A stretch of 64,000 nt of DNA from an uncultured Glaciecola sp. (lineage in GTDB: Bacteria; Pseudomonadota; Gammaproteobacteria; Enterobacterales; Alteromonadaceae). Below are positions 30,909 through 52,627 of the stretch, piece after piece. The stretch lies in assembly GCA_905479945.1 (NCBI GenBank), contig CAJQOP010000007.1, positions 1-64,000 of the forward strand, written 5' to 3'. A model generated the notes under the pieces. The model did no database searches and was not told the DNA's origin. It saw nothing but the letters and a program-made list of their open reading frames with translations. Each line of letters opens with the position of its first letter. The first letter of the stretch is position 1. The position numbers were made by a program, and so were the translations under genes.

Positions 30909-31455
30909 TTTATTATTTTCCTATTGTAGGGGTTAGGCCTCCACATACCCCTTTCTCTCGATCCAAAACGCTGTATAAACAATGTTTCAGACACCCCGAG
31001 ATCAGTGTCGGTATGTGTGTGTTTTTAGTTAATTTGTACTGTATATTTTCAGGTTGTTTTACGACAATCCCAAAACAGCGCGCGAAATATATCATTCTAC
31101 CACCCAACATTCAACTTTTTCGGCTATTAAAGTAGATACTATTTACGCTTTAAAAGGCCCCTCAAAAACCGTTTTAAAATAAGAGAAGCCCTTCCAGAGC
31201 ATCTATTTAACACTGAGTTCTTCGAAACCGACCTATCAAGCAGTTTCTTACCTTAGAAAAAGAGGTTTTTGTGCGAAAATTATTACATATATACAAGAGG
31301 TCGTAGTTTAGGTGATTTGTTCTTGATATACTCTTGGGTAATGGACTAAGTGTTAATTATCGTCTTTGCCGTTCTATATTAGCGACTAATACAGAGTATG
31401 AAGGAAAGAAGACTTGTTTAAAAAATTAGCTTAATTAAATTCGAAGAGGTTTGTC
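30909..31455. other. Divergent control region between rpsB and map
   Basis: The 547 bases hold the rpsB leader hairpin (30928-30952) near the left end and the map ribosome binding site GAAGAGG (31443-31449) at the right end. No gene longer than 30 codons with a ribosome binding site was found. The promoters for both directions must lie here but I could not assign them with confidence. Confidence 0.6.
30928..30952 (-). promoter_or_regulatory. Candidate rpsB leader hairpin
   Basis: AGGGGT at 30928-30933 pairs with ACCCCT at 30947-30952 around a 13-base loop that includes the palindrome AGGCCT. It lies in the untranslated leader 20 bases before the rpsB start. In E. coli S2 represses its own operon through the rpsB leader; this hairpin is a candidate for that site, by position only. 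Confidence 0.5.
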
Positions 31456-44700: not shown

Positions 44701-45414
44701 TTACGAAACATCAAACCGCTTAATTAATGCCTGAAAATCATCCTCGAATGAGGTCTCGCAAGTTATTGGTTTCTGCGTAACTGGATGCAAAAAGTGTAGT
44801 TTAGTTGCGCAAAGTGCTAACTTGCTGAACGCTAAGTGATCTCGCGCAAATCGATTTTGCTTACCGTCTCCATGCGTTGTATCGCCAATAATCGGGTGTC
44901 TAATATGCGCCATATGCCTGCGTAATTGGTGTTTTCGGCCAGTTTTTGGCATTAATTTCACCAACGAAAACCTTGCACCTGGGTATATTCCAACGGGAAT
45001 AGGTAATGACAACTCACCCAATTTTTTCATTTCAGTTAAGGCCTCTTGCGCTTCCTTATCTTTTTTTGCCTTTTTATCCGCGATTGGATCCAACTTCTCT
45101 TTCAGCGCATAGTCAATCGTTGCATGCTCGGGTGCAAAACCACGAACCACTGCATGGTATTCTTTGCTGATCGTATGGGCTTCAAACTGCTGTGCTAATG
45201 CTCGAGCGATGTCAGAAGATAATGCAAATAAAATGACGCCCGATGTTGGTTTGTCTAAACGATGCACTGGGTAGACATATTGCCCGATTTGATCTCGTAA
45301 TATCTTCATCAAAAATACGGTTTCATGACGATCAATCATACTTTTATGAACCAACATATTAGCTGGTTTGTGCACGACTACTAGGTCTGCGTCTTGGAAT
45401 AATATGGTAAGCAA
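44701..45414 (-). CDS. truC: tRNA pseudouridine(65) synthase TruC
   Basis: TruC makes pseudouridine 65 in tRNA-Ile and tRNA-Asp. The catalytic Asp is in VYPVHRLDKPTSGV, and PKTGRKHQLRRHMAHIRHPIIGD is typical of the RluA family. VHKPANMLVHKS and DRHETVFLMKILRDQIGQ follow TruC closely. The frame is open up to 45501, but the upstream part is not conserved. The TTG at 45414 gives MLTILFQDADL, aligning with the start of E. coli TruC (237 residues). It is divergent from the DUF3549 gene. Confidence 0.92.
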   Translation of the reverse strand: MLTILFQDADLVVVHKPANMLVHKSMIDRHETVFLMKILRDQIGQYVYPVHRLDKPTSGVILFALSSDIARALAQQFEAHTISKEYHAVVRGFAPEHATIDYALKEKLDPIADKKAKKDKEAQEALTEMKKLGELSLPIPVGIYPGARFSLVKLMPKTGRKHQLRRHMAHIRHPIIGDTTHGDGKQNRFARDHLAFSKLALCATKLHFLHPVTQKPITCETSFEDDFQALIKRFDVS

Positions 45415-45686
45415 AATGCGAAACTCATGTTGTAGGTAAGTGAAAACTAATTGTATTAAGACGTGTTGACCTTTTTTATGCGCTCCATTTGAACTCAGCA
45501 AGAAAAGTCAGCGCTGCGAAGTGTAACATGGGTCTTCTTTTATACCTTCGCTTGTCGATAATTAATACAAGAAACATACGACATCTACGTTCTTTTAAAT
45601 TTATTCAATTGCTTTTCAATTTCATACGTTGGTACATCTTAGGTATCTTGATACACTAGCCGCCAAAGACAAAATCTATACGACAA

Positions 45687-46733
45687 ATGACTGCACACAC
45701 AATTAATACAATCAGTGAATTTATGCTGCATGCTGGAACCCAATATCGCATTTATGATATGGGCCGTGGCATCGAGTTGATTGACTCGCAGAAGTTCAAT
45801 GACATAGAAAGCAATCTTATTCCAGTACCTCGTCCTCGCGCAGGTTTTGCTTGGTTTGGCATTGTTTTCTGGAATGCACAGTTGAGTCACGAGCAGTATA
45901 TTTGGTTTGTTAAGCTGCCAATCGATGAAAGGTCGCTGATAGTTCAAGCTGCTCGCAATCAATTTTTAGAAACGGTTATTACAGCGCTGGGAAGTGAACT
46001 GGAAAAAAGCGCTGAGAAAGGCGGCCAGTTGCCTGAAAATCCGTTTGTTTTCGTCCCATCACAACAACAGCTTGCCGACATCAATGCAATGATTAGACGC
46101 GACTTGATATTGCCGGCGCGACTAGGTTTAGATAAAGCTATCGCATACCTCAAAAACCCAAAAACAACTAACTGGCAAGATTTAGCGCTACAAGATATTT
46201 CAGATTTAGCCGCTCATATTGAGCGCAAAGACATCGCTCATGCGGTAAACAAAAATCTCGCCGTGCTTCCGGTTCAAGTGTTAACTGCTCTTTGCAGTAG
46301 TTTTGAAAATAGTGGTTATGGTCAAAAGCTTACCAGCAGCTTAATTCAATTATATCAATCCGCTGCGTACGCCGAAATACAACATATGGTGCTGCGTGGA
46401 CTAAAAGGAAGTGACTGCAAAGAGCAAGTTCGTGGGTTTTTGTTTGACTTACTCCAAGCTGGGCAGCCTGATGTTGAATGCTTAGTAGTTATCGCGGGCC
46501 GTCATTTCAGCTTGCTCAATGACGAGCGCTTACTAGTAGTTTATTTAACAAAACTGATAGAATTAGACGCAAGCTATCAATTATTCAAAGGTGTTTATAC
46601 TGATCTTGTACAAGTACCTGAAACTAGAATAGGACTATTAACCTTAATGCACAAATCAGATTTACCCAAACCAATCGCACGCGGGTTTGCCAGCTTGTAT
46701 CAGCAAGTATCACCTTCAATGAGTGCAAGTTAA
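45687..46733 (+). CDS. DUF3549 family protein
   Basis: The 348-residue soluble protein has the family-typical N-terminus (ISEFMLHAGTQYRIYDMGRG) and a helical C-terminal half. The function is unknown. It is adjacent to truC and a DUF3301 gene, a grouping seen in Shewanella-type genomes. Its stop overlaps the ATG of the next gene (TAATG). Confidence 0.85.
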   Translation: MTAHTINTISEFMLHAGTQYRIYDMGRGIELIDSQKFNDIESNLIPVPRPRAGFAWFGIVFWNAQLSHEQYIWFVKLPIDERSLIVQAARNQFLETVITALGSELEKSAEKGGQLPENPFVFVPSQQQLADINAMIRRDLILPARLGLDKAIAYLKNPKTTNWQDLALQDISDLAAHIERKDIAHAVNKNLAVLPVQVLTALCSSFENSGYGQKLTSSLIQLYQSAAYAEIQHMVLRGLKGSDCKEQVRGFLFDLLQAGQPDVECLVVIAGRHFSLLNDERLLVVYLTKLIELDASYQLFKGVYTDLVQVPETRIGLLTLMHKSDLPKPIARGFASLYQQVSPSMSAS

Positions 46734-47038
46734 TGACATTAGGTTCCTTGGTAATACTGATAACTATTAGCTTGATTGCGTTTCAATTTTGGCGCTTACG
46801 TGGTATTTCAGAATTCAGCATTAAATATGCAAATAACTACTGTAAACAACAAAATTTACAATTTCTCTCATTAGCTAGGCGAGCAACTCGCATATCTGCC
46901 TATCGCGGTAAACTAGATTGGAAAATAGTTTATCAATTGGAATTTAGCAGCAGCGGCGAAGAAGCCTATATAGGAACTATGACTAGCTTTGGCAGTAATG
47001 TTATTGAGATGAACCTGCCTGCTTACAAAATAAACTGA
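46733..47038 (+). CDS. DUF3301 family membrane protein
   Basis: The 101-residue protein has one N-terminal membrane segment (about residues 4-20). The conserved QFWRLRGISEFSIKYANNYCKQQNLQFLSLARR and a short beta-rich C-terminal region follow. The function is unknown. It is translationally coupled to the DUF3549 gene. Confidence 0.87.
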   Translation: MTLGSLVILITISLIAFQFWRLRGISEFSIKYANNYCKQQNLQFLSLARRATRISAYRGKLDWKIVYQLEFSSSGEEAYIGTMTSFGSNVIEMNLPAYKIN

Positions 47039-47140
47039 TAAGATTGTTCCAAAGTACCCTATAGAGTCTTTGTTTACATTAGCATTATTCTAATTTTCTG
47101 CGTGTTTCACGTTAACTTGATATGCTTTTCCCACACAAAT

Positions 47141-47470
47141 AAAAAAGGCAGAAACGTTCTGTTTCTGCCTTTCCCATGAATTTTGAGCATCCCTCTCAGC
47201 TTTCCGTTGCTAGTAGATCATCCATATGAAATCCCTTACACCCCTTTCCTTTTTTTCCCACTCTTCCTAAGCAGGCAACACTCCATGTGTCGGTCCCTTT
47301 TCCGTTATTTCCTTGTTTAATGCAATTCCATCCTGCATTAATTCTTCATCCTGAAGTTGTCCTATTATTCCGTACCCTGTGAGTTTCGTCCTGAAACCTT
47401 CCTTTACCTTTAACACTTTCGTCCTGAAGATGTTTCCCTTAGGTTAAGTAATAATAGCAAGGGGGATGAT
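47141..47470 (-). ncRNA. csrB: CsrB-type regulatory RNA
   Basis: Read on the minus strand, positions 47437 to 47172 hold 21 GGA motifs, several as CAGGA(C/T)GAA or CAGGATG, the CsrA-binding sequence. The RNA ends in a strong terminator at 47144-47172. CsrB RNAs sequester the translational regulator CsrA; E. coli CsrB has a similar number of motifs. In E. coli csrB lies near syd and yqcC, and here it lies between the truC-DUF3549-DUF3301 group and syd. The 5' end is uncertain: no strong promoter is visible, though TATATC (minus strand, 47480-47475) would start transcription near 47468. No protein gene fits this stretch. Confidence 0.87.
47144..47172 (-). terminator. Terminator of the CsrB-type RNA
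   Basis: Perfect twelve-base arms (47144-47155 and 47161-47172, AAAGGCAGAAAC and its complement) enclose a five-base loop. On the minus strand the stem is followed by a T6 run. It also lies about 105 bases past the DUF3301 gene and could stop plus-strand transcription. Confidence 0.93.
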
Positions 47471-47479
47471 TTTTGATAT

Positions 47480-47499
47480 ACATTAAAAACTTTTAATGT
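47480..47499. promoter_or_regulatory. Palindrome upstream of the CsrB-type RNA
   Basis: ACATTAAAA and TTTTAATGT face each other with two bases between. It lies just upstream of the presumed CsrB promoter, where the UvrY/GacA response regulator would act. The sequence does not match the enterobacterial UvrY site, so its role is open. Confidence 0.35.
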
Positions 47500-47649
47500 T
47501 TGCTAGTGCGATGGCTTTTTGATCAAATGGAATCTAACATTGTTGTTTTCATTAAACTTTCTAAAAAAAAGGTATAATAGTCGCCTGAACCTAGCCACAT
47601 TTACTCACACGCACGTACGAAACCTCTTACAAGAAATATAGACTTTTAC

Positions 47650-48291
47650 CTATAAGGCTTTTTTTCTAAACATAACTTTGCCAGTTACATTCCCGACTTC
47701 TAGCTCTTTTAGCAATTCAAATTGATTATCCACAAAGAAAGAACTGTGCTTTGGTTCAGTGACAAATACACCTACGCCCTCTGTTTTATTGTCTTCTTGC
47801 AGCAAGCCCACAATACCACTCATTAAAATATGACCTAAACCAAGGTCTTGATAATCTGGGTGCACACCAATGAATGACAACATGTGATAATCTTTGGCGA
47901 GAATTGACTCACGTACCTTTTCCTCTTTGGCTATCATTTGCTTGGTACCAAAGAAGCCTGCGGTTAACAACATTTTTAGTCGCCAGTGCCAGTAACGTCC
48001 AGAACCAAATGCAGCATCAGGACTTATCAAACATGCGACCGCGAGCAGTCGACCTTGGTCAAATAAGCCTATCATCGGCTGTTTTGCATCCCAAAACGCA
48101 TTCAACTCTTCACGAATAGCAGAACGTAATCGAATGTCATAATTTTCTCTTTCTAGATCAAAAATATCATTAAAAAGCGGATCGTTATAATAGGCATTGT
48201 AGAGAATAGAAGCGGCTACTTTTAAGTCATCAGCACTCAAGTATACGGCTCTGATGTCTTCGATATTAGGTTGGTGAATTGATGTATTCAT
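47650..48291 (-). CDS. GNAT-family N-acetyltransferase
   Basis: The 213-residue protein has the acetyl-CoA-binding core LSFIGVHPDYQDLGLGHILMSGIVGLL (motif A, Q/R-x-x-G-x-G/A type) and a preceding strand LAVACLISP. The substrate is unknown. The ATG at 48289-48291 has GAGGGAAG upstream and is preferred over the in-frame start 10 codons earlier. It is monocistronic. Confidence 0.85.
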   Translation of the reverse strand: MNTSIHQPNIEDIRAVYLSADDLKVAASILYNAYYNDPLFNDIFDLERENYDIRLRSAIREELNAFWDAKQPMIGLFDQGRLLAVACLISPDAAFGSGRYWHWRLKMLLTAGFFGTKQMIAKEEKVRESILAKDYHMLSFIGVHPDYQDLGLGHILMSGIVGLLQEDNKTEGVGVFVTEPKHSSFFVDNQFELLKELEVGNVTGKVMFRKKAL

Positions 48292-48400
48292 AAGTCTTCC
48301 CTCATTATTACCTGCACACAATAAAACATTCTCAGGAATACGCTAACATTTTTTACCAAAGCCCCTTTGATCTACCCCAAAAAATGCGCACAAAAGCATA

Positions 48401-49202: not shown

Positions 49203-49503
49203 GTATCAACAGGTCGTAAATGCCTGCATTGAACTGCAAAATCTAGGAAAGAAGCCAAGTGTTGGCATGATAAAGGCAAAGCTATTATCGCCCTTACCTA
49301 TTCCAATTATCATCAAAGGTCTGAGTTATTGGAAGGAGTATAAGCATACCCTTAAAATAGATGCGCTACCGCAACTGGCAGTGCCCATTGTTTCAACTCA
49401 CGATGTTTTAAGCGAGCGCGTTACGCAATTGGAAAGTGACCTTGTGTTGTTGCGATCAGAACTTAAAGCCTTGCAACGGCGTCTCGAGGACGAAGGGCCT
49501 TAA
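49192..49503 (+). CDS. Small protein with predicted helix-turn-helix and coiled coil
   Basis: The 103-residue protein has an N-terminal helical region (VVNACIELQNLGKKPSVGMIKAKL) resembling a winged-helix or KfrA-type DNA-binding start. Its C-terminal heptad-rich helix includes LSERVTQLESDLVLLRSELKALQRRL. I do not recognise the family. Its 3' end overlaps the convergent syd gene by 41 bases. The ribosome binding site is poor because tandem repeats run into the start codon. Confidence 0.65.
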   Translation: MKPEYQQVVNACIELQNLGKKPSVGMIKAKLLSPLPIPIIIKGLSYWKEYKHTLKIDALPQLAVPIVSTHDVLSERVTQLESDLVLLRSELKALQRRLEDEGP

Positions 49504-50044
49504 TAAAGCTAGCCAAATCACTGGCCAAGACTTCCGTTGGTATTTTACCCACTTGCTCCAGCATCACATTGCCTGAGGCCACTTCAAGACTGATAATAAA
49601 ATCATCTTGATCGGTAGTTGCAAAAAATAAGGTTTCAGGCTGTTTTAGTCGACGCTTCATCAAAACATGGGAAATTAAGTTTTTTTGTAGTCGTTCGAAA
49701 TCATCTTTATTCCAAGCTTGCAATATATCGAGTTCACCGCGATCAGTTTGGGCTGGTAAATCATGGCTGTAATACCTGCAAAATAGAGCTTCTAACTGCG
49801 GATCAATGTCGACTTCGAGCGCTTTTGCCAAATCACCTAAATGTGTGTTTTTTGGCTGCAAGCTCGGCGCCCAATAAACCTCAGTTCCATCATCAATGCT
49901 CGAAAGCTCAGCTTCAGATACTTGTATGCATGGTGATAACCAGTCGGCATCAAACTCAGTTACCATCTGCCTGTTGTCATTGCCTACGAGGTCGATATAA
50001 GAATTAATGAAGTTATCTAAATTATCAACAAGTTGATTTGTCAT
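49463..50044 (-). CDS. syd: SecY-interacting protein Syd
   Basis: Syd binds SecY on the cytoplasmic face and is thought to check assembly of the SecYEG channel. The 193 residues match the family: EVYWAPSLQ, LQAWNKDDFERLQKNLISHVLMKRRLKQPETLFFATTD. It is divergent from queF, as in E. coli, where syd and queF are neighbours. Confidence 0.93.
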   Translation of the reverse strand: MTNQLVDNLDNFINSYIDLVGNDNRQMVTEFDADWLSPCIQVSEAELSSIDDGTEVYWAPSLQPKNTHLGDLAKALEVDIDPQLEALFCRYYSHDLPAQTDRGELDILQAWNKDDFERLQKNLISHVLMKRRLKQPETLFFATTDQDDFIISLEVASGNVMLEQVGKIPTEVLASDLASFIKALRPRDAVARL

Positions 50045-50233: not shown

Positions 50234-51097
50234 TTGGACCATTTATCACTGGGTAAAATAGTTGAATATGCCCAAGAATACGACAACAGCTTATTACAGC
50301 GTGTTCCGCGCGCGTTAAGTCGCGACGCCATCAAGCTGCCTTCTAAGCTGCCCTTCCACGGGCACGATATTTGGAATGGCTATGAGTTATCTTGGCTGAA
50401 CCCCAAAGGCAAACCGCAAGTTGCTATATTGCGTTGTGAAGTCCCTGTAACATCGCCAAATTTAATAGAATCTAAATCGTTTAAATTGTATTTAAATAGC
50501 TTTAATCAAAGTAAATTTAGCTCTGTCGATGAAGTAAGTCATACACTGCAAGCGGATCTTAGCGTTTGTGCCGGTGAGCCAGTGACTGTAACCGTAATAC
50601 CTTCATCAGCATTCGATGCGATACGTTTTGGCACTTTTGAAGGAACCTGCATTGATGGTATGGATATCGAAATTGATGACTTTGATATAACACCCGCCCT
50701 GCTTCTGGAAAGCGGTCATAGTCAAAACAGCAGCACATCCGACAGCGCTGAATCAAAATCACCAACAGCTGATGTGGTATCGGAAACCTTAGTAAGCCAC
50801 TTGCTGAAATCGAATTGCTTAATTACGAATCAGCCTGATTGGGGTAGCATTCTAATTAAATATAGCGGTAAGCCGATATCCCATGAAGGCTTATTACGCT
50901 ATTTAATTTCTTTCAGGCAACACAACGAATTTCATGAGCAATGTGTTGAACGTATTTTTTATGACATATTGCAGCAATGCAAACCAGAGAAATTGACCGT
51001 TTACGCAAGGTATACGCGTCGTGGTGGATTGGACATTAATCCCTTTCGTTCAAATTTTGAAGCTCCATATGAAGATGCTCGCTTAGCTCGGCAATAA
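50234..51097 (+). CDS. queF: NADPH-dependent 7-cyano-7-deazaguanine reductase
   Basis: QueF reduces preQ0 to preQ1 in queuosine synthesis. This is the long bimodular type (287 residues). The first half has [14 protein letters not shown]. The second half has the active-site Cys195 in [34 protein letters not shown] and [14 protein letters not shown]. The start is TTG with AGGAGA upstream. Confidence 0.97.
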
Positions 51098-51265: not shown

Positions 51266-52627
51266 ATGACAACAGTGCAACTAAACCCAGTCGGTTGGAT
51301 GAGTCAATTATCCCAGCTTGAAGTCAGCCTCTTACAGCAATCAACGCAAAGCGATTTGTACGGTATTTTCAGAAATTGTTGCCTTGCGGTTCTAAATAGC
51401 GGCGTTGAAGAAGATAACTACCATAATCTATTCGCCCCTTATGATGACTTCGATGTACGTTTAGTTAGGCGTGAACGCGGAGTCAAAATTGAACTGATCA
51501 ATCCACCGGAAGTGGCATTTGTTGATGGAAAGTTAATTACAGGCGTGCATGAACACTTGTTCGCTGTATTGCGTGACATGCTTTACATGGGAACAAAACA
51601 CAGTACTAATTTTGAAAAACTCATTGAAGCACCAAGTCAGCTCACCACGCATGTGGTTTTTGACATGTTGCGCCATGCTAACGCGATATCACAAGACCAA
51701 GCTATCAACATGATAGTGTGTTGGGGCGGCCACTCAATTCGCGAAGAAGAATACAAATACACCAAGTCGGTTGGGTACGAATTAGGCTTGCGTGGCTTTA
51801 ATATTTGTACTGGCTGTGGCCCAGGCGCAATGAAAGGGCCAATGAAAGGCGCAACTATTGGCCACGCTAAGCAACGGATCAAGAATGGCCGTTATTTAGG
51901 TATTTCTGAACCAAGCATTATTGCTGCAGAGCCGCCTAACGCAATTGTAAATGAACTCATTATCATGCCTGACATCGAAAAGCGTCTAGAAGCCTTTGTA
52001 CGAATTTCTCATGCTATTGTGATTTTCCCAGGTGGTGCAGGCACCGCAGAAGAGCTACTTTACCTACTTGGCTTGCTTATGGATGAAGAGAATAAAGATC
52101 AGAAAATTCCATTGATATTAACGGGCCCTGAAAACAGTAAGGCTTATTTTGAAGCTATCGACAAATTTATAGGCGCGACCTTAGGTGCGCAAGCCCAGTC
52201 TAAATACACCATTGTGGTTGGTGATCCAGCTAAAGCCGCTAGATTTATGGCGCAGCAAAAAGAGGCTGTTGAGCAGACCCGACGGGACACTGGAAATTCG
52301 CTAAACTTCAATTGGACATTGAATATATCTGAAGACTTTCAAACCCCTTTCTTTCCAAGCCATGCAAATATGAGCGGGTTAGATTTACGCTTAGATCAGC
52401 CCAAGAGTTCATTAGCAGCCACTCTGCGCAAATGCTTCTCCGGCATTGTTGCGGGCAATGTGAAAGCTGAAGGTATCGAAGAAATCAAGAAACACGGTCC
52501 ATACGAGTTAACCGGTGACCTTGAATTGATGCAAGAGATGGATGTGTTACTTAACTCTTTTGTTGATCAAGGACGCATGAAACTTCCAGGTAGCCGTTAC
52601 GAACCTTGTTATAAAGTAAAAATTTAG
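51266..52627 (+). CDS. ppnN: Pyrimidine/purine nucleotide 5'-monophosphate nucleosidase
   Basis: PpnN (YgdH) hydrolyses nucleotide monophosphates to base and ribose 5-phosphate and in E. coli responds to (p)ppGpp. The LOG-type core shows CWGGHSIREEEYKY, GCGPGAMKGPMKGA and FPGGAGTAEELLYLLG. The length is 453 residues (454 in E. coli), with the N- and C-terminal regulatory regions. It follows queF, a conserved pairing. Confidence 0.95.
   Translation: MTTVQLNPVGWMSQLSQLEVSLLQQSTQSDLYGIFRNCCLAVLNSGVEEDNYHNLFAPYDDFDVRLVRRERGVKIELINPPEVAFVDGKLITGVHEHLFAVLRDMLYMGTKHSTNFEKLIEAPSQLTTHVVFDMLRHANAISQDQAINMIVCWGGHSIREEEYKYTKSVGYELGLRGFNICTGCGPGAMKGPMKGATIGHAKQRIKNGRYLGISEPSIIAAEPPNAIVNELIIMPDIEKRLEAFVRISHAIVIFPGGAGTAEELLYLLGLLMDEENKDQKIPLILTGPENSKAYFEAIDKFIGATLGAQAQSKYTIVVGDPAKAARFMAQQKEAVEQTRRDTGNSLNFNWTLNISEDFQTPFFPSHANMSGLDLRLDQPKSSLAATLRKCFSGIVAGNVKAEGIEEIKKHGPYELTGDLELMQEMDVLLNSFVDQGRMKLPGSRYEPCYKVKI

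Follow-up and report, generated by a model that had tools for sequence, protein, structure and literature searches.

A predicted csrB-type small RNA gene between truC and syd in an uncultured Glaciecola species

Described Csr RNAs and the Glaciecola locus

CsrB is a well-known small RNA that sequesters the regulator CsrA, and it belongs to a global switch in many Gammaproteobacteria. In Escherichia coli K-12, the gene order is truC, yqcC, csrB, syd, queF, and ppnN, and csrB shares its strand with truC and syd. The genus considered here, Glaciecola, lies near Alteromonas. Upstream of E. coli csrB, a UvrY inverted repeat (TGTGAGAGATCTCTTACA) is reported to have its centre at -183/-182; a further, partly conserved sequence lies 5 bp downstream of the repeat, and a putative IHF consensus lies between the two UvrY sites (PMC4682653).

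Related RNAs have been described in several related genera. In Shewanella oneidensis MR-1, CsrB1 and CsrB2 are reported from experiments as UvrY-dependent RNAs of about 420 nt, encoded in two copies with a transposase gene between them (PMC3171408). The Aln1a-c RNAs of Alteromonas macleodii Te101 are described as A(N)GGA-rich and very highly transcribed, with three starts within a 404-bp region, and are proposed to sequester CsrA (PMC5864184). Pseudoalteromonas fuliginea is reported to have three CsrB-family RNAs per genome, Pf1 to Pf3, with 25, 21, and 9 GGA motifs, respectively; CsrA binding of Pf2 and Pf3 was tested by EMSA (PMC11882849).

The window analysed here is a 64-kb stretch of DNA (64,000 nucleotides) from an uncultured Glaciecola sp. 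A GGA-rich region on its minus strand is very probably the csrB gene of this organism, that is, a UvrY-activated RNA of about 304 nt that sequesters CsrA. It would be a csrB ortholog of the ordinary kind and, as far as the searches show, new as an annotated member; no report of csrB in Glaciecola was found in the open-access library searched. The computations found an excess of GGA motifs, hairpins in the 3' half, a terminator, an upstream box, and conserved synteny, as well as csrA and uvrY in the same genome. The candidate resembles E. coli CsrB (RF00018) in its place and strand, its number of GGA motifs (21, as against 22), its UvrY repeat at about -180, and its full-length match to the family model. 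It differs in length (about 304 nt, as against 369 nt) and in scoring 38.5 bits, under the 71 bits set by Rfam. With the reported Shewanella RNAs it has in common AGGA/ARGGA motifs and a TGTAAG-N6-CTTACA box, whereas only one copy was found here. The likeness to Aln1a-c is one of RNA type (A(N)GGA-rich); in contrast to the three RNAs of P. fuliginea, one was found in this genome.

In the proposed mechanism, phosphorylated UvrY would bind the inverted repeat, some 180 bases upstream, and activate the promoter, giving an RNA of about 304 nt that ends at the terminator hairpin. This RNA would bind several CsrA dimers through its numerous GGA motifs, a fair share of which lie in hairpin loops, and CsrA held in this way would be kept off its mRNA targets. 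Transcription, UvrY dependence, and CsrA binding are expected here from what is known of the family.

The original prediction placed this RNA near syd and truC, in parallel with E. coli. The order and the strands agree, and the distances are greater, with truC 1.6 kb and syd 2.0 kb from the RNA. The order in the window is truC, DUF3549, DUF3301, the RNA, GNAT, DUF3192, a hypothetical gene, syd, queF, and ppnN, and the relative strands of the RNA, truC, syd, queF, and ppnN are those of E. coli K-12 (Table 1). The RNA thus lies where a csrB ortholog is expected, between truC and syd-queF-ppnN and in the same orientation as truC and syd. Unlike the E. coli locus, this one has five other genes (DUF3549, DUF3301, GNAT, DUF3192, and the hypothetical gene), and the yqcC family has no match among the window genes scanned. 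The close relatives found for the neighbouring DUF3549 protein come from four Glaciecola loci (67-72% identity). In 12 of 14 related loci, truC, DUF3549, DUF3301, a GGA-rich RNA, GNAT, DUF3192, and syd follow in this order. At the other two, the RNA, GNAT, DUF3192, syd, and queF are present, and no match to truC, DUF3549, or DUF3301 was found within the stretch read. The locus of G. pallidula (L002), a cultured species, shows synteny as well.

Table 1. Features of the predicted csrB locus and its neighbours in the window
Feature	Position	Strand	Basis
csrB-type small RNA (predicted), ~304 nt, 21 GGA	47141..47444	-	RF00018 match, GGA excess, synteny; start inferred from -10
Conserved 3' domain, covarying GGA hairpins	47136..47297	-	lineage model R1, 181.8 bits (the window is itself among the nine sequences used to build R1); covariation, 24 sequences
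Rho-independent terminator: 12-bp stem, 5-nt loop, U-run	47141..47172	-	RNA fold; stem covaries in relatives
-10 element TATTAT (putative)	47451..47456	-	by eye; transcription start inferred ~47444
UvrY/GacA-type inverted repeat TGTAAGAGGTTTCGTACG (predicted site)	47614..47631	-	sole 18-mer of the window with at least 15/18 matches
DUF3301 protein, neighbour	46733..47038	+	PF11743, E 6.1e-24
GNAT-type acetyltransferase, neighbour	47650..48321	-	PF00583, 20.7 bits, at cut-off
truC-type pseudouridine synthase, synteny anchor	44701..45501	-	PF00849; 51% identity to E. coli truC
syd, synteny anchor	49463..50044	-	PF07348, E 4.8e-58
queF, synteny anchor	50234..51097	+	PF14819 and PF14489
ppnN, synteny anchor	51266..52627	+	PF11892, PF14793 and PF03641

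Family match and distribution

A search with the Rfam CsrB covariance model had been proposed as a check. With the threshold lifted, RF00018 matches over its full length (1-356 of 356) at 47449-47137, with E 6.3e-9. The gathering cut-off, which the score does not reach, is a curators' threshold and not a biological feature. A gathering-level Rfam scan of the whole window reports no CsrB; its single match lies elsewhere and is a t44 RNA (RF00127) at 30932-31039 on the minus strand, with 67.2 bits against a cut-off of 44. MicC and other weak Rfam matches were rejected, being far under their cut-offs and either overlapping the terminator hairpin or lying upstream.

The expectation that such an RNA would escape gene finders fits these results, since it lies below the Rfam cut-off here and in all 98 sampled genomes of the bacterial family, 28 of which have a match at E 0.01 or better. 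In a second set of 40 genomes, this one included, the cut-off is passed in none of the 24 from the family and in five of the 16 from the wider order. The E. coli control passes it in both surveys. Within the genus set, two of 13 genomes (G002 and G005) have no RF00018 match at E 1. In one genome of the order, five above-cut-off RF00018 matches stand in a row at a spacing of about 700 bases (G031:C1:4533806-4536939, partly in L008).

The lineage model, R1, was built from nine 3' halves and matches 30 of the 98 family genomes. Of these matches, 29 are plausible; the one in G085 (L062, E 2.3e-5) is probably false, with only two GGA nearby. Fifty of the 98 genomes have neither an RF00018 match at E 0.01 nor an R1 match, a count that reflects stricter filters and is not evidence of absence: G018 and G023, which are among the 50, were matched by RF00018 in the 40-genome survey (E 2.2e-6 and 1.3e-4, respectively). 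One of the 12 fully syntenic loci, that of G014, has an RNA with a different 3' half, which R1 scores at 21.7 bits. R1 also matches the CsrB of other groups weakly, and the RNA of this lineage therefore looks like a diverged branch of the CsrB family rather than a new family. Together with the conserved gene order, R1 offers a simple way to find csrB in part of the bacterial family.

The score below the Rfam cut-off could also be read as the mark of a Csr-family RNA that is a separate sibling, CsrC- or Rsm-like, and that merely happens to sit at this place. Movement of such genes has a precedent, in that vibrio csrB copies are reported to have arisen by duplication and moved (PMC6262261). However, the position and strand between truC and syd are those of E. 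coli and of the 12 syntenic loci. Moreover, both RF00018 and R1 match this genome (132 contigs, 90.5% complete) at a single place, and R1 matches E. coli CsrB, albeit weakly (14.5 bits, E 0.021), at its 3' end. Such a sibling is thus very improbable, and an ortholog of csrB remains the preferred reading. A second, diverged csrC may exist elsewhere in this genome.

Motifs, hairpins, and upstream box

The motif count given in the original prediction is upheld: the minus strand of 47141-47470 contains 21 GGA, and the plus strand of the same interval contains one. In 2000 dinucleotide-preserving shuffles the mean is 12.9 (sd 2.2), and a single shuffle reaches a count as high. CAGGAYG occurs four times in this interval, against a shuffle mean of 0.05 and with none of the 2000 shuffles as high. 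The GGA-richest 330-base stretch of the window, 47108-47437, overlaps the RNA and has 22 GGA, while the runner-up has 12. Many GGA above chance, a feature of CsrB-type RNAs, are thus present. The protein-free gap, given as 330 bases, is real but wider (47039-47649), and the first 25 or so bases of the 330 would be promoter, with the RNA itself at 47444-47141. The longest open reading frame within the RNA has 49 aa. The RNA is predicted to be non-coding and to end at an intrinsic terminator, as is typical of the CsrB type. The terminator of the original prediction is found in the RNA fold; a simple promoter and terminator scanner reported neither this hairpin nor the TATTAT promoter. That element places the start near 47444 and the length at about 304 nt. 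Similar elements, also recognised by eye, precede the RNA in several relatives.

Folded as a single sequence, the RNA is moderately better than shuffles (z -2.6). In its minimum free energy (MFE) fold, 11 of the 21 GGA are fully unpaired, and seven of these 11 fall in hairpin loops; the MFE fold of E. coli CsrB leaves 16 of 22 unpaired, with nine in hairpin loops. Given the moderate z-score, the structural case rests on covariation and concerns the 3' half. The sequences compared were the 20 best of the 30 R1 matches, the window among them, and four further genus sequences, with the ten weaker R1 matches left out. The set was gathered with a model made from nine sequences, eight of them in the set, which favours alikeness but not compensatory changes.

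RNAalifold on these 24 sequences gives GGA hairpins and the terminator, whose stem covaries, and 20 of 26 pairs show a change at both positions in one sequence or more. The five named GGA hairpins of the 3' half, all recovered by RNAalifold except a short one at columns 99-109, have 12 of 20 pairs changed on both sides. Their double-changed cells number 63, against 19.5 in shuffles, which ignore relatedness. Paired cells make up 94.1%, against 82.7% in shuffles and at most 44% in slid versions, and the covariation score is 0.417, against 0.195. Four of the five hairpins have at least one pair changed on both sides, and the fifth is invariant and uninformative either way. The original prediction had named the absence of GGA from hairpin loops as one finding that would count against it. 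Presentation of GGA in loops is seen in the 3' half across the 24 sequences; the 5' half was covered by the single-sequence fold, with the loop counts for the whole RNA given above.

The 3' half is conserved; the 5' half differs among loci in both length and content. That of G003 (L012 1700-1849) contains 5.8 copies of a 26-base unit, each with one CTTCAGGACGAAG that, by eye, is able to form one GGA hairpin. This suggests that csrB lengthens by tandem copying.

A UvrY/GacA-type box far upstream of the promoter is a further feature of CsrB-type genes, and a predicted site of this kind is present. The box, TGTAAGAGGTTTCGTACG, has 15 of 18 matches and is centred at about -179/-178 from the inferred start, with a half-site, TGTGAG, 4 bp downstream. 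A full IHF consensus was not found between the box and the promoter, the best match being 11/13. Upstream of the R1 matches, a box of at least 15/18 occurs in 22 of 30 cases (window included), compared with six of 302 control windows; at 14/18 or better the counts are 25 of 30 and nine of 302. The remaining eight of the 30 loci showed no upstream box at the 15/18 level. The box, being palindromic, matches again on the opposite strand and was therefore masked in the control. The stop codon of the GNAT-type gene lies about 20 bases from the box.

In view of its modest fold z-score, the region might instead be an extended untranslated region (leader or trailer), or a purine-rich spacer in which GGA happens to be overrepresented. 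The compensatory changes in the GGA hairpins, the terminator, the box at a known distance, and the conserved place in the gene order all speak against this. Furthermore, the DUF3301 gene is oppositely oriented, and the GNAT gene already stops upstream of the box. An explanation of this kind can be regarded as extremely unlikely, and a csrB-type RNA accounts better for the locus.

The response regulator and its possible kinase

One csrA was found in the genome; it encodes 65 aa and adjoins alaS. Among 59 matches to the UvrY model, one lies above the curated cut-off (321 vs 280 bits), and the next best has 143 bits. This uvrY has a reading frame that is open from the start to its own stop, and it adjoins uvrC. 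The adjoining UvrC (L026 2-1498, G000:C66, outside the window; TIGR00194 from residue 77) carries, ahead of its conserved part, a six-residue repeat (APHNAD and variants) in eleven copies.

A less ordinary part than the csrB ortholog itself, and so far a lead, concerns the input to UvrY. The proposal is that this input has changed in the lineage of Glaciecola: the canonical BarA, with its sCache_4 sensor and its place beside rlmD, would have been lost, and UvrY would be fed by a parC-adjacent tripartite kinase in which a BarA/GacS-type core is combined with a LadS/RetS-type 7TMR-DISM sensor, while CsrB has its own conserved 3' domain in much of the lineage. This proposal is about as likely as not to be true. 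If it holds, a global regulatory circuit would have acquired a new input while keeping its output RNA in place. In Pseudomonas, LadS and RetS are reported to carry the 7TMR-DISMED2 sensor and to act through GacS (PMC7695008); one protein would here do what takes LadS plus GacS there. Among the literature matches listed, none describes a 7TMR-DISM kinase of BarA type acting on UvrY.

The sCache_4 domain was not found in this genome or in any of the 13 genus genomes, and it is present in nine of 30 genomes searched. The best match to the BarA model here is a protein of 1046 aa, with 533 bits over positions 257-890 against a cut-off of 890. It carries 7TMR-DISMED2, 7TMR-DISM_7TM, HisKA, HATPase, receiver, and Hpt domains and may feed UvrY. 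The gene lies outside the window, at L065 1399-4539 (G000:C2). A kinase of this type occurs in all 13 genus genomes, with at least 38% identity over nearly the full length.

Across the 98 family genomes, the two kinds are almost mutually exclusive. The 7TMR-DISM kinase is found in 36 (E 1e-120 or better) and sCache_4 in 55 (E 0.001; 54 over its cut-off), with both in one genome (G078) and neither in eight. The sCache_4 match of G078 has 23.4 bits within a frame of 207 aa and is therefore probably not a kinase. Three of the 36 kinase matches are partial, and the one in G080, which runs from residue 327, covers only the end of the 7TM part. All 30 genomes with an R1 match fall within the 43 without sCache_4, and 27 of the 30 have the 7TMR-DISM kinase. 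The sampled genomes are related; these counts are therefore not independent observations, and a single event could account for them. The three R1 genomes with neither kind are G017, G085, and G115, and R1 found no match in nine of the 36 genomes with the 7TMR-DISM kinase.

A tree of 21 kinase cores places the seven 7TMR-DISM cores included in one group (100/100), which, together with ten BarA-type cores, is separate from four other hybrid kinases (100/98). The 7TMR-DISM cores join the eight sCache_4 cores ahead of those of G026 and G029, but without firm support (88/87); because the four other kinases have long branches, this placing is provisional. The gene neighbours of the two kinds also differ. 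The sCache_4 kinase adjoins rlmD in all eight loci fetched, one of them (G031) with a match just under the model cut-off, and in G026, where sCache_4 has no match, rlmD adjoins the BarA-like gene; in G029, the one neighbour scanned was not rlmD. The 7TMR-DISM kinase adjoins parC in six of six loci scanned, all of them other than the locus of this genome.
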